Assembly (NCBI RefSeq): GCF_000247645.1
Contig: NZ_AHWA01000004.1
Coordinates: 186,001 to 250,000 of the forward strand
Direction: 5' to 3'
Length of the DNA: 64,000 nt
From: Salinibacterium sp. PAMC 21357
Lineage (GTDB): Bacteria; Actinomycetota; Actinomycetes; Actinomycetales; Microbacteriaceae
Shown: positions 22,935 through 28,215 of the stretch, one piece after another
How the letters are laid out: the number at the start of each line of letters is the position of its first letter
Position numbering within the stretch: position 1 is the first letter of the stretch
Notes under the pieces: generated by a model
The model's input: only the letters and a program-made list of their open reading frames with translations
Database searches by the model: none
Told to the model about the DNA's origin: nothing
Translations under genes and position numbers: made by a program

Positions 22935-24671
22935 TTACAGCGGCCGAGAGTCGGCCGCCGCCAGGATCATCCCTGTCGCGGCCGATTTTCGTATCCGCTT
23001 CACGGCAAGCACCGAGAGGAGAACGCTGACCACTCCCAAAGCGAGCAACGCGACGGCAGCGGTAATCGCTGGCTGGGCGCTTCCGCCAGACAAGATCACA
23101 TACATTCCCTCTACCGCGTAGGTCAGGGGAAGGAACGGGCTTACTGCTTGGAACGGTGCCGCGAGAGCCTCAATCGGGTACACCCCGCCGGTTGACGTGA
23201 GTTGGATCGCCAGCAAGAACAGCGAAATCACGAGACCCCCTTTGCCGAGCGCAGCGATCAAGAAGTAGTGGAACGCAGCAAACGACAGTGCTGTCAAGAT
23301 CGCGAAACCGGCCGTGGCTGGCGCAAGAGCCCAAGAGACACCCACTCCGACGTGCAGCAGCAGCACCAGCAGCACCGCCTGAATAGCCGTCAGCAGCGAT
23401 GCTCTAATCAACGTCGAGGCAACGATACGACCGTCACGAGCGGTGGAGGACAACGAACGGTACGAAGGCAAGCTCAGCACCAGAAACACAGCAAGTGCGC
23501 CAAGCCAGAGTCCGAGCGGAATCAAGAATGTCGCAATTGCTTGGGCTGGTTCGGTCACGGCGTTATCGGTCGTCACTGAAAGTGTCACGGGCTCGGCGGC
23601 GATCTCAGAATTCGTGCTGGCCGCGTCAGCATCGGTCGGAGGCAGTTGAGCTGCGCCTTCGCTCAGGCCAGTGGCCAGTTCTGACGCTCCGGTCGAGAGC
23701 GCGCTGGCTCCCTCGGTAAGCGCTGGCGATCCCGCGGCGAGCTGGCTTGCTCCTGACGCACTTTGAGAGATTCCGTATTGGATGCCGCTGACGGCGGCAC
23801 CGGTCTGCGACTTCAGCGTCGCCCCGCCGGCAGCCGCTTGAGCGAGCCCGTCGGTGACAGCCTGAAGGGTTCCTTTGAGTTGGGGATCGGTGAGTTGAGC
23901 CTGAATCGCAGGATTGATCGCCGCCAACGTTGAGGATAATTGGGAGACGCTAGCCGTGTAGGTGGCGACGCCGCTGGTCAGCCCTGACAACCCGCCGGCA
24001 CCGTTATTGAGTTCTTGCAATCCGCTGGCTAGGGAGTCGACTCCCGCGGTATAGGTCGTGAGGCCACCAGCGAAACCGTCGGCACCAGCAGAAAGTTCTG
24101 CCGCCCCATCGGCTGCGCTGGTGAGCGCTCCCCCGAGTTCACCGATGCTGGCATAAACGCCATCGAGGTATTGCGACGTGATCGCTCGCCCAAACGTGTC
24201 GGTCATCGATTGGCCGACGACCTGCGCAACAGAGCCGGTGAGATAGCTGTGCGAGTCATCGGTTCTTATCGAAATCTGCGCTTGTGTTGGGGCGTCAGTG
24301 GAGAGGGAGAGAATCGACTCTGAGAACTCTTTCGGCACGGTGAGAATCGCGTAGACGTCTCCGTTAGCGAGAGCTGTTTCGGCGTCATCCGAGTTGGTTA
24401 TGGTCCAGTCAAAGCCGTCGGCACCGGTGAGTTCGGTAACCAGTTGGCGCCCCGCAAAGACTATTTGTTCATCGCCATCGAGAGCTGTTGTGGTCTGGAT
24501 CTCATCGTTGTTGACGAGCGCAACCGGAATGTTGTCGATCGAACTGTTGCCGTCGCCGATCGCCGCCACGAAGAGTCCCGTGAAGGCGAGCGGAATTACC
24601 GCGACAGCGGCAAGTCCCAGCACGGTCAGCCAACGCTTTTTGGGCAGCGCGGTGGGGTACGAAGTTCTCAT
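22935..24671 (-). CDS. YhgE/Pip-family membrane protein (ABC-2-type)
   Basis: The protein is 578 residues. An N-terminal membrane helix (about 14-36) is followed by a long extracytoplasmic domain and a C-terminal block of five or six helices related to ABC-2-type permeases. The mid-region is a coiled, repetitive stretch of Ala/Gly/Ser/Leu units (GAxxLxxGxxxL-like, about residues 185-340), typical of YhgE/Pip proteins. Relatives include phage-infection protein and type VII secretion accessory proteins. Its start overlaps the stop of the MMPL gene by four bases, so the two are made together. The MMPL protein carries an ABC-like tail, and an ABC-2 permease partner next to it is suggestive. Confidence 0.88.
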   Translation of the reverse strand: MRTSYPTALPKKRWLTVLGLAAVAVIPLAFTGLFVAAIGDGNSSIDNIPVALVNNDEIQTTTALDGDEQIVFAGRQLVTELTGADGFDWTITNSDDAETALANGDVYAILTVPKEFSESILSLSTDAPTQAQISIRTDDSHSYLTGSVAQVVGQSMTDTFGRAITSQYLDGVYASIGELGGALTSAADGAAELSAGADGFAGGLTTYTAGVDSLASGLQELNNGAGGLSGLTSGVATYTASVSQLSSTLAAINPAIQAQLTDPQLKGTLQAVTDGLAQAAAGGATLKSQTGAAVSGIQYGISQSASGASQLAAGSPALTEGASALSTGASELATGLSEGAAQLPPTDADAASTNSEIAAEPVTLSVTTDNAVTEPAQAIATFLIPLGLWLGALAVFLVLSLPSYRSLSSTARDGRIVASTLIRASLLTAIQAVLLVLLLHVGVGVSWALAPATAGFAILTALSFAAFHYFLIAALGKGGLVISLFLLAIQLTSTGGVYPIEALAAPFQAVSPFLPLTYAVEGMYVILSGGSAQPAITAAVALLALGVVSVLLSVLAVKRIRKSAATGMILAAADSRPL

Positions 24672-27571
24672 CGAAGTAGTCCTTCTGGTGCATGGAGGTA
24701 GAGGTCTACGAGGATCACTTTGCGATCTCCGTGATCAATCGAGCGGGCAACGGTCACGGGAGATTCTGTGCCGAAGATGATGGTGGTTGAGGCATCCGCT
24801 AAACGTCCGACGGCGGTGAGGAAAGCGACTTCGTCATCGTCAGAAGCGAATTGGTCAAAGCGATCAAAGAACACAATCTCCGTTCCTTCCGCGAGGGCGA
24901 CTGCGGCGAGCGCCACTGCTCGTTCGAGTTGCGGCAGCGCGCTGATGTTGGTCGCGGCGGTGATGCGCACAGTGTGTCTCGCCGTGACCTCCGCGAGCAC
25001 CCCATCACTGCGGCGAATCCAGTCGCGAACACTGGCTGCCGTGCGCATGCTGCGGCGCAGAGGCTGCGTCATCTCTAGCCGTTCGCGCAGGATCGCTCCC
25101 ATCGATGCCAAACCATCGTTATAGGGTGACCCGGCCACCTCGGCGAGCGCCACTGCCCGATTTGCTTGATCCGCATGGGAAGGAAGCGGGAAGCCGGCAA
25201 CCTGCACCATGCCAGAGACCGGTGGCAGAGCTCCGGCGAGAGTTGCGCCGATTACTCGCCGATCGCGACGGTCGCCAGAAGCGATCACTACCGAACCGCG
25301 GGGAATCGCGACAGAGAGCGGGCCAAGTTGGCGCTCGGCATCCCCGACCACAAGGTATTCAGAACTCAAAGCGAGCCCCGTTTGCGTCTCAGCCCAGTCG
25401 AGCTCGTGGCGATGCTCGCGCAACTGCTCGCCCTCGATATCAACGTTAGGTAGAGCGCGGCTGAGCCAGGCCGGTAGCCACCAGGCTGCCCGACCAAAGA
25501 GGGCCATAAGGGCAGGTACCAGCGTCATCCGCACCAAGAATGCATCGAAGGCGATGCCCACGGCGAGTCCCAACGCAATGGGCTTGATGGTTCCGCTGCC
25601 TTCAGGAACGAAGGCGAAGAACACGAAGAACATGATGAGCGCTGCCGCTGTTACGACGCGCGCGCTGCTGGCAAAACCGTGCTGCACTGACGACGCAGCA
25701 TCGCCGCTCTTCACAAACTCTTCACGCATTCCGGAGACCAAGAACACTTCGTAGTCCATGGCCAGCCCAAAGAGCACGGCCATGAGCAGAATCGGCATAA
25801 AACTCAGGATGGGGCCCGGATTCTCGACCCCAATGATGTCCCCAAACCAGCCCCACTGGAATACCGCAACGACAACACCGAATGAGGCCACTACAGAAAG
25901 CAAGAACCCTGCCGCTGCTTTGAGAGGCACGAGCACAGAGCGGAATACCATCATGAGCAGCAAGATCGATAGCCCGACCACAATCACGCCGAAGGGCACG
26001 AGAGCGCCGCTCAACCGGTTCGAGATATCGATTCCGACCGCGGTCGTTCCCGTAACGAAGCTCTGGATGTCGTACTTGCGTTCAATGTCCGGGGCAAGAT
26101 CGCGAATCGTTTGCACGAGCGCTTTGGTCTGTTCTGAGTCTGGTGCGCTTGATGGAGTGACTTGGATGATTGCGGTGTCTAGTCCATCGTCAGGGAATCC
26201 CTGCGAAACAAAATCCACGTCGTCGAGCTTCTCGAGGTCAGCGGCAATCGACTCCAGATCCTCTTGGATGTCGACGGTTTGAGTGATGTCGAGCGCCACG
26301 ACAAGAGGCCCGTTGTATCCCGGGCCAAAGCCCTCGCTCACCAGATCGTACGCTTCGCGTTGCGTGGACCCTGACGGCTCAGAGCCGCCATCCGGAAGAC
26401 TCAGTTGAAGGCTTGCCGCCGGAATGGCCAGCGTTCCCAGAACGGCGACCACCGCAATCGTGGCCAACCACGGGTGACGTGTTACCCCGCGCACCCACCG
26501 AGAGCCCATCGTCTTGCTTTCCGTAGCCGACACTGTGAAGCGCCGATGAGTTCGCGAACCGACCTTCGGGATGAGCCGCGCTCCGGCCAAGCCGAGCAGC
26601 GCTGGCAAGAGAGTAGTCGCCACACCCATAGCAATGAAAACGGCAACAGCAGCGCCGATGCCCATCACGCTGAGGAAGGGAATGCCGACAACGAGCAATC
26701 CAAGCAAAGCAATGATTACCGTGACACCGGCAAAGACCACCGCACTGCCTGCGGTGCCGACAGCCATCGCCGCGGACTCTTCGGGATGCTCGCCCCTCGC
26801 CAGCTGGGCTCGATGCCGCGACACGATGAAGAGAGCATAGTCAATGCCAACCGCTAGCCCAATCATGAGCGCCAAAAGCGGCGCCGAACTCGACACCGTG
26901 GTAAACGCCGAGAGAGTAGTGATGAGCCCCATCACAATTCCGACCCCGAGCAAAGCACTCAACAACGGCATCCCGGCAGCCAGTAGCGAGCCGAAAGTGA
27001 TCACGAGTACCAACGCCGCAAACACGACGCCAACAACTTCGGTGACCGTTATGCCGAACGATGTGTCCTGAAACACCTGGCCGCCAAACTCAACGCGAAG
27101 GCCAGCATCCTCACCGATCTGAGCCGTAGCGATCAGCTCTTCAAGAGTCGCCGCTGTGACCTCTGTTCCCACCCCATCAAACTGCACCCGGATGATCGCC
27201 ATCGTGTGATCATCCGAGATCGCCTTACCGGCGTACTCATCGAAAGGGCTCACTGCCGAATCGATACCGTCAATGCGGTCGATTGCCGACGTGATTCGCT
27301 TGATGACGGCTTCCGAGTTCTCGACGCGAGATCCGTCTTCTTCGACAATGACCGCGGTCGCGGCGGCGCCCGCCACAGACGGGAAAACGGCCTCTAACCG
27401 ATCGAGAGCAGCCTGCGACTCTGTGCCGGGAATCTCAAACGACTCTTGAGTTTCGCCGCCAAGAGCTATCCCGGCCCCTAGCGCTCCGGCCACGAGCACT
27501 ATCCACACAATGAGCACACGCCACGAATGACGAAAGGAGAATCGACCAAGCCGATAGAGAAGGATTGCCAC
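24668..27571 (-). CDS. MMPL-family transporter fused to a degenerate ABC-ATPase-like domain
   Basis: The protein is 967 residues from GTG 27571, with CGGAG upstream. Residues 1-716 form a standard MMPL/RND-type exporter: two sets of membrane helices, each after an extracytoplasmic domain. MMPL proteins export lipids or drugs by proton motive force. Residues about 717-967 (24671-25423) are extra. They read like an ABC ATPase: a LSVAIPRGSVVIASGDRRDR segment where the P-loop belongs, LPPVSGMVQVAGFPLP (the SGxVxxxG stretch after Walker A), QLERAVALAAVALAEGTEIV in place of signature plus Walker B (VFFDRFD), and IIFGTES as the switch strand. The P-loop Lys and Ser/Thr are lost, so ATP hydrolysis is unlikely. 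It is co-transcribed with the YhgE/Pip gene and preceded by tetR. Confidence 0.85.
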   Translation of the reverse strand: MAILLYRLGRFSFRHSWRVLIVWIVLVAGALGAGIALGGETQESFEIPGTESQAALDRLEAVFPSVAGAAATAVIVEEDGSRVENSEAVIKRITSAIDRIDGIDSAVSPFDEYAGKAISDDHTMAIIRVQFDGVGTEVTAATLEELIATAQIGEDAGLRVEFGGQVFQDTSFGITVTEVVGVVFAALVLVITFGSLLAAGMPLLSALLGVGIVMGLITTLSAFTTVSSSAPLLALMIGLAVGIDYALFIVSRHRAQLARGEHPEESAAMAVGTAGSAVVFAGVTVIIALLGLLVVGIPFLSVMGIGAAVAVFIAMGVATTLLPALLGLAGARLIPKVGSRTHRRFTVSATESKTMGSRWVRGVTRHPWLATIAVVAVLGTLAIPAASLQLSLPDGGSEPSGSTQREAYDLVSEGFGPGYNGPLVVALDITQTVDIQEDLESIAADLEKLDDVDFVSQGFPDDGLDTAIIQVTPSSAPDSEQTKALVQTIRDLAPDIERKYDIQSFVTGTTAVGIDISNRLSGALVPFGVIVVGLSILLLMMVFRSVLVPLKAAAGFLLSVVASFGVVVAVFQWGWFGDIIGVENPGPILSFMPILLMAVLFGLAMDYEVFLVSGMREEFVKSGDAASSVQHGFASSARVVTAAALIMFFVFFAFVPEGSGTIKPIALGLAVGIAFDAFLVRMTLVPALMALFGRAAWWLPAWLSRALPNVDIEGEQLREHRHELDWAETQTGLALSSEYLVVGDAERQLGPLSVAIPRGSVVIASGDRRDRRVIGATLAGALPPVSGMVQVAGFPLPSHADQANRAVALAEVAGSPYNDGLASMGAILRERLEMTQPLRRSMRTAASVRDWIRRSDGVLAEVTARHTVRITAATNISALPQLERAVALAAVALAEGTEIVFFDRFDQFASDDDEVAFLTAVGRLADASTTIIFGTESPVTVARSIDHGDRKVILVDLYLHAPEGLLR

Positions 27572-27660: not shown

Positions 27661-28215
27661 TCAGTTGCTGCTGATGGGGGCGAGCAGATCGCTCATGATC
27701 GAGATGAGGGCCGAGCGAGTGTCGTCGTTCGACTCGAGCGTCAGCGCCAAATTATCTGCCGTGCAGAGCATGTAGGCGGCGCCGCCGAGGGCTATTCCGA
27801 AGCGCATTTTGTCGTGGGGGTCTGCCGTGGTGGCGGAGAAGAATTCCGCGAGGTTGCGCACCGTCTTATTGGCGCGCTCAATCACCGCAAGATCGCGCAG
27901 TGACGGTCCTTGATTGATGAACATGTGCACTTCTTGGCGGTATTCAAAGAGGAAGTCCACGAACTGTTCGAGAAACTGTTGTCGATAGTCGGCCGATAGC
28001 CCGTGCCGGGCGAGTTCGGCCATGAGCGACTCGATACGGTCGACCGCCGGACCGACGGCGGCTTCCAGCAGCGCCTCTTTCGAAGTGAAGTGATAGAGCA
28101 CGCTGGATTTCGAAAGACCGGCAAGCTCGGCGATTCTCTGAATCGAAGTTCCGGTGTACCCGGCCGACGCGAATTCGGTGAGCGCTATACGCTGAAGTTC
28201 CTCTTGACTAGACAC
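27661..28215 (-). CDS. TetR family transcriptional regulator
   Basis: The protein is 184 residues from GTG 28215. The N-terminal helix-turn-helix reads ALTEFASAGYTGTSIQRIAELAGLSKSSVLYHFTSKEALLEA, the typical TetR DNA-binding domain, followed by an all-helical ligand/dimer domain. It is upstream of, and in line with, the MMPL and YhgE genes (90 bases apart). A perfect 16-base palindrome lies just upstream of its start. It most likely represses itself and the export operon; the inducer is unknown. Confidence 0.92.
   Translation of the reverse strand: MSSQEELQRIALTEFASAGYTGTSIQRIAELAGLSKSSVLYHFTSKEALLEAAVGPAVDRIESLMAELARHGLSADYRQQFLEQFVDFLFEYRQEVHMFINQGPSLRDLAVIERANKTVRNLAEFFSATTADPHDKMRFGIALGGAAYMLCTADNLALTLESNDDTRSALISIMSDLLAPISSN

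Follow-up and report, generated by a model that had tools for sequence, protein, structure and literature searches.

Why does a pump of the RND type end in what resembles the motor domain of an ABC transporter, and what would that domain do beside a YhgE/Pip permease gene? RND pumps and ABC transporters count as two distinct classes, each with its own energy source, and at the locus analyzed here the two transporter kinds may be joined into one machine. The locus lies in a 64,000-nucleotide stretch of Salinibacterium sp. PAMC 21357 (contig NZ_AHWA01000004.1, positions 186,001 to 250,000), the whole of which is called the window below.

Organization of the exporter locus

The exporter gene occupies 24668..27571 on the minus strand, starts with GTG and encodes 967 residues, divided between an MMPL core and a C-terminal tail. 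The features of the locus, in window positions, are as follows.

22935..24671, minus strand: YhgE/Pip ABC-2-like permease (TIGR03061/TIGR03062, ABC2_membrane_3)
24668-24670, minus strand: stop codon of the exporter gene
24671..25423, minus strand: C-terminal degenerate ABC nucleotide-binding domain (NBD), residues 717-967 (profile and hhalign homology)
24863..24877, minus strand: Walker B strand, residues 899-903 (IVFFD), Asp903 conserved
24920..24946, minus strand: signature region, residues 876-884, without LSGGQ, L879 and R884 conserved
25256..25276, minus strand: remodeled P-loop, residues 766-772, G-x4-R-R replacing GxxGxGK[ST] (conserved columns)
25424..27571, minus strand: MMPL (RND-type) core, residues 1-716 (Pfam MMPL, PF03176, 2.6e-87, two stretches)
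25751..25756, minus strand: second DY pair of the MMPL core, D606-Y607, conserved in alignment
26837..26842, minus strand: first DY pair of the MMPL core, D244-Y245, conserved in alignment
27661..28215, minus strand: TetR-family regulator, directly upstream of the exporter (PF00440, 8.1e-13)

The next gene, which overlaps the exporter gene by four bases, had been read as a YhgE/Pip ABC-2-like permease, and this is borne out: its product exceeds both NCBIfam YhgE/Pip cut-offs (TIGR03061, 152.8 vs 96.15 bits; TIGR03062, 179.9 vs 102.2 bits) and matches Pfam ABC2_membrane_3 at 4.9e-21. The YhgE/PIP domain is termed one without known function in a passage of PMC4999554, and a passage of PMC3924187 gives the PIP family homologues in the ABC-2 superfamily. 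Among 80 close relatives, kept of 169 found by genome scan, the YhgE start lies no more than 60 bases from the exporter end in 78, the exceptions being L024, cut by a contig end, and L033, with its frame broken inside the core; a TetR homologue lies within 1.5 kb upstream in all 78 relatives having upstream sequence. Another broken frame, between core and tail, occurs in L189 (genome G358). In one genome of the same genus, G289, a tail match at E≤1e-15 and a TIGR03062 match are both absent, as though the permease had disappeared together with the tail.

The core contains both MMPL halves and ends in an LPxVDIEGE segment, the same segment at which tail-less relatives stop. Against the MmpL3 equivalog NF052608 the exporter scores 177.8 bits, far below the cut-off of 1400 bits. 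The DY pairs of MmpL3 act as its proton carriers or relay. Both pairs are kept in every row of a 79-row alignment comprising the window and 78 of the 80 relatives (L024 and L033 dropped), so the MMPL pump is probably powered.

The tail is homologous to ABC nucleotide-binding domains

The last ~250 residues had been described as ABC-ATPase-like. Taken alone, the tail sequence has no match in Pfam (E≤10) or NCBIfam (E≤1), and its sole PDB row is an antibody (E 0.74), a silence that would suit an accidental likeness or descent from another P-loop/Rossmann family. Profiles built from many tails give a different picture. A profile of 64 aligned tails (A1) reaches 208 distinct PDB sequences at E≤1, and the 60 matches listed of these are ABC proteins; the best is an NBD at E 1.8e-5, aligned over profile positions 20-221 of 226. 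The match thus spans nearly the whole profile, more than the one weak strand to which it might have been limited. Pfam ABC_tran is reached at E≤1 by 16 of the 64 single tails, with a best value of 1.2e-4.

The second line of evidence is profile-profile alignment. Compared by hhalign with A2, an alignment of 32 stand-alone YhgE-linked NBDs, A1 aligns over the tail's length with 99.9% probability (E 1.5e-33), and the controls are flat: 0.8% for reversed A2, at most 0.2% for MMPL and YhgE pieces, and at most 1.4% for 20 column shuffles. The earlier description is thereby confirmed, and by profile homology residues 717-967 are homologous to ABC NBDs. The flat controls rule out a chance likeness to an ABC ATPase as a candidate, and the wider reading of accident or another P-loop/Rossmann family is extremely improbable against the NBD profile matches, the contrast between hhalign result and controls, and intermediates that score above the Pfam cut-off. 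Two of the 111 fused tails counted below (L283 and L294) are too diverged to reach 15 bits with either first-round NBD profile. In L250-L260, the fused tails measure ~190-220 residues, and the middle, helical part of the NBD seems to be missing.

Catalytic motifs and selection

The P-loop Lys and Ser had also been read as lost, and the alignment agrees: the Walker A Lys place is R771 in 79/79 rows, in register with the Walker A Lys in the hhalign alignment, and the Ser place is R772 in 76/79. None of the 64 A1 tails contains Walker A (GxxGxGK[ST]), an LSGG signature or the hhhhDE pattern of Walker B plus Glu. The signature region keeps L879 and R884, each in 77/79 rows; the Walker B Asp903 is retained in 74/79 and followed by Arg, the canonical motif having Glu there; the switch His is absent. 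Because Walker A, signature, Glu and switch His are all lost, ATP hydrolysis by the window's tail is very unlikely.

Loss of the motif is accompanied by conservation of what replaced it. The former P-loop stretch with its following helix is the most conserved part of the tail, 9 of its 17 columns showing one residue in at least 90% of A1 rows, and, judged from these columns, the window's clade has turned the P-loop into a conserved G-x4-R-R motif. The peak of conservation sits at the old nucleotide site and not plainly at the permease-facing side, a position that would suit ligand binding no less than docking. The strongest rival to the adaptor reading set out below builds on this point: the rebuilt loop would bind nucleotide or another anion as a ligand and not hydrolyze it, making the tail a sensor that gates pump or permease. 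It draws on the invariance of R771 in the Walker A Lys register, on the loop stretch being the best conserved of the tail, and on the Arg found at the Lys position in 16 of the 32 stand-alone A2 relatives. We consider it unlikely, since the loop is one residue shorter than GxxGxGKT and the signature motif and Walker B Glu are missing.

Selection on the tail was compared with that on the core in 14 pairs, giving dN/dS of 0.05-0.35 for the tail and 0.02-0.11 for the core, with the tail below 1 in 14/14, these values being rough for the many pairs with dS >1. The lower-dS pairs give 0.046 for the tail and 0.019 for the core (L003-L007) and 0.139 and 0.090 (L006-L008). By this measure the tail is under purifying selection and less constrained than the core. 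A decaying vestige with no present function would fit the faster evolution of the tail and its lost catalytic motifs; we regard it as highly improbable, given dN/dS below 0.36 in all 14 pairs, the invariant residues, and the retention of the tail across 111 fused genes.

Stand-alone relatives of the tail precede YhgE

The sequence-only reading had posed the choice between homologues that keep the fusion and homologues with a separate intact ATPase gene; both exist, since some fusions have an intact P-loop and there are separate NBD genes with Walker A. A match at E≤0.001 occurs in 138 of 149 genomes of the window's order, mostly to ordinary ABC proteins; beyond the window's own family the strongest matches are to stand-alone proteins whose genes immediately precede YhgE. 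All 32 members of A2 match Pfam ABC_tran, and A2 reaches the PDB at 3.4e-24 (ABCA3). The Walker A of A2 carries Lys in 16/32 and Arg in 16/32, while LSGGQ and hhhhDE are missing from these 32 rows as well.

Across the fetched loci, 55 stand-alone NBD proteins were found; YhgE adjoins 54, the remaining one lying at a contig end, and none of the 55 adjoins a whole MMPL gene. Walker A with Lys or Arg is kept in 48/55. The proposition that every stand-alone relative has Walker A holds for A2 (32/32) and was rejected in the wider set, where 7/55 lack the pattern, some keeping GSGRT minus the first Gly and others having lost more.

Several further arrangements were observed. Stand-alone YhgE-linked NBDs of other families (L264, L273, L275, L279 and others) have P-loop alterations of their own. 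The window's own genome encodes a second YhgE (L241:6291-8956, G000:C3 about 1245790-1248455); in front of it lies a 269-aa stand-alone protein that weakly resembles an NBD (26 bits, E 2e-6), has no recognizable P-loop and gave no match in a Pfam search. Tandem NBD-YhgE-NBD-YhgE sets, an arrangement that a heterodimeric ABC transporter would be expected to have, are present at L272:4582-11575 and L278:791-7724.

Fused and stand-alone forms separate in the NBD tree (69 rows, support 100/100) and in the YhgE tree (47 rows, SH-aLRT 99), both built before fused forms with an intact P-loop were discovered. As both trees show the same split, NBD and permease were inherited together, and by homology and gene order the tail shares ancestry with NBDs that partner YhgE.

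Fused forms with an intact P-loop and the order of events

A search for genes sharing the MMPL core covered 299 genomes of the family, of which 265 gave a match at E≤1e-120, and 246 of the class. Whole fused genes, counted in fetched loci L102 to L210 and L241 to L301, number 111; these loci were picked from search lists rather than at random, and some of the genomes recur among the 80 relatives. The Walker A Lys is present in 6 and lost in 105. The six intact tails belong to the window's own family (L251, L261), to another family (L262, L274, L291) and to a third (L295), and they overturned the view, drawn from the first set of loci, that all fused tails had lost the P-loop. In L262, Pfam MMPL and ABC_tran both lie above cut-off in a single chain, ABC_tran at 57 vs 25 bits; against the same 25-bit cut-off, L291 (46.2) and L261 (25.4) lie above and L251 (23.6) and L295 (18) below.

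In a 62-row MMPL-core tree, the fused genes form one clade against two tail-less rows (support 100), an outgroup of two rows only, on long branches. The six intact rows are scattered over this tree; its supported branches require the P-loop state to have changed at least three times, and grouping the six together is rejected (p 0.025). Since an intact-P-loop fusion exists, the simplest account would place fusion first and P-loop loss later, more than once. An intact P-loop would then be ancestral; the tree demands state changes only, and we think it unlikely that the motif was regained in register. Retention of Walker A in 6 of 111 fused genes means that nucleotide binding may still matter in some lines.

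Linkage with YhgE and a candidate adaptor role

YhgE adjoins 109 of the 111 fused genes, the exceptions being L190, at a contig end, and L282, where an over-long YhgE ORF defeats the distance rule. By comparison, YhgE is found near none of the tail-less MMPL genes at 20 loci of ~10 kb each, two of them from the window's own genome and one (L302) a distant MMPL of 143 bits. From these two counts it follows that the tail, rather than the pump, goes with YhgE.

This bears on another rival, in which the tail regulates or stabilizes only its own MMPL pump and YhgE is a co-regulated, unbound neighbor. The placement of the MMPL and YhgE genes in one TetR-linked operon would allow it, and cytoplasmic C-terminal regulatory tails are known in MmpL proteins. 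It is nevertheless distinctly improbable: YhgE is absent at the 20 tail-less loci and the tail's kin partner YhgE without MMPL, so the tail tracks YhgE, not MMPL.

An NBD docks on the cytoplasmic face of its permease, and the C-terminus of MMPL proteins is cytoplasmic; the tail is therefore rightly placed for binding YhgE. With moderate confidence, we favor the reading that the tail acts as a non-hydrolyzing NBD adaptor through which a proton-driven MMPL pump docks onto YhgE, the ABC-2-like permease. The sequence-only suggestion of a scaffold between exporter and permease is supported in part, by the tail's NBD ancestry and its nearly exact linkage to YhgE at the loci covered, with scaffolding itself a candidate function. 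The NBD would once have been the cytoplasmic motor of a YhgE-type ABC-2 permease and would later have been joined to an MMPL pump at its cytoplasmic end. After fusion the protein would have lost nucleotide hydrolysis, with the window's clade rebuilding the P-loop as a conserved Arg-Arg loop. The tail would still occupy the position on YhgE that an NBD takes on its permease, holding pump and permease together as one putative exporter under the upstream TetR regulator, with proton-motive force as the presumed sole energy source. Beyond the homology, fusion, motif loss and gene linkage established above, we infer the docking and the energy coupling, and an adaptor joining pump and permease is the reading that would explain the linkage best.

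A bolder version is possible, and we hold it only tentatively: a hybrid RND-ABC exporter, in which a proton-driven pump acquired the ATP motor from an ABC-2-type permease and this motor was then disarmed in several lines, proton-motive force replacing ATP and the NBD persisting as a mechanical coupler. If true, the series from stand-alone NBD through fused intact P-loop to fused Arg-Arg loop would preserve, in living species, a switch from one energy source to another. A conserved fusion of an RND pump with an ABC motor, in graded P-loop states, makes the trade of ATP for proton-motive force in a transporter testable, and YhgE/Pip gains a candidate NBD partner in actinobacteria.

Comparison with known systems

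The literature searched, with subscription papers and preprints outside its scope, yielded no description of such an MMPL-NBD-YhgE system. By the NCBIfam cut-offs the partner gene belongs to the YhgE/Pip proteins, which include phage infection protein and EsaA of type VIIb secretion; in the portions of that literature covered, an NBD or MMPL partner of these proteins was not found described.

HAE2 pumps export complex lipids, according to a passage of PMC3924187. With MMPL/HAE2-type RND exporters (MmpL3-like), the present exporter shares the two-half Pfam MMPL core and one DY pair per half, but differs by its NBD-derived tail and the YhgE gene that follows.

Compared with ABC NBDs (PF00005), the tail shares profile homology over most of the domain and the Walker B Asp, whereas it lacks the Walker A Lys, LSGGQ, the Walker B Glu and the switch His and is joined to an RND pump. 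The nearest relatives of the tail outside the fusion are the stand-alone YhgE-linked NBDs of actinobacteria: both precede YhgE, but the stand-alone forms are separate genes in which the Walker A Lys or Arg is mostly kept.
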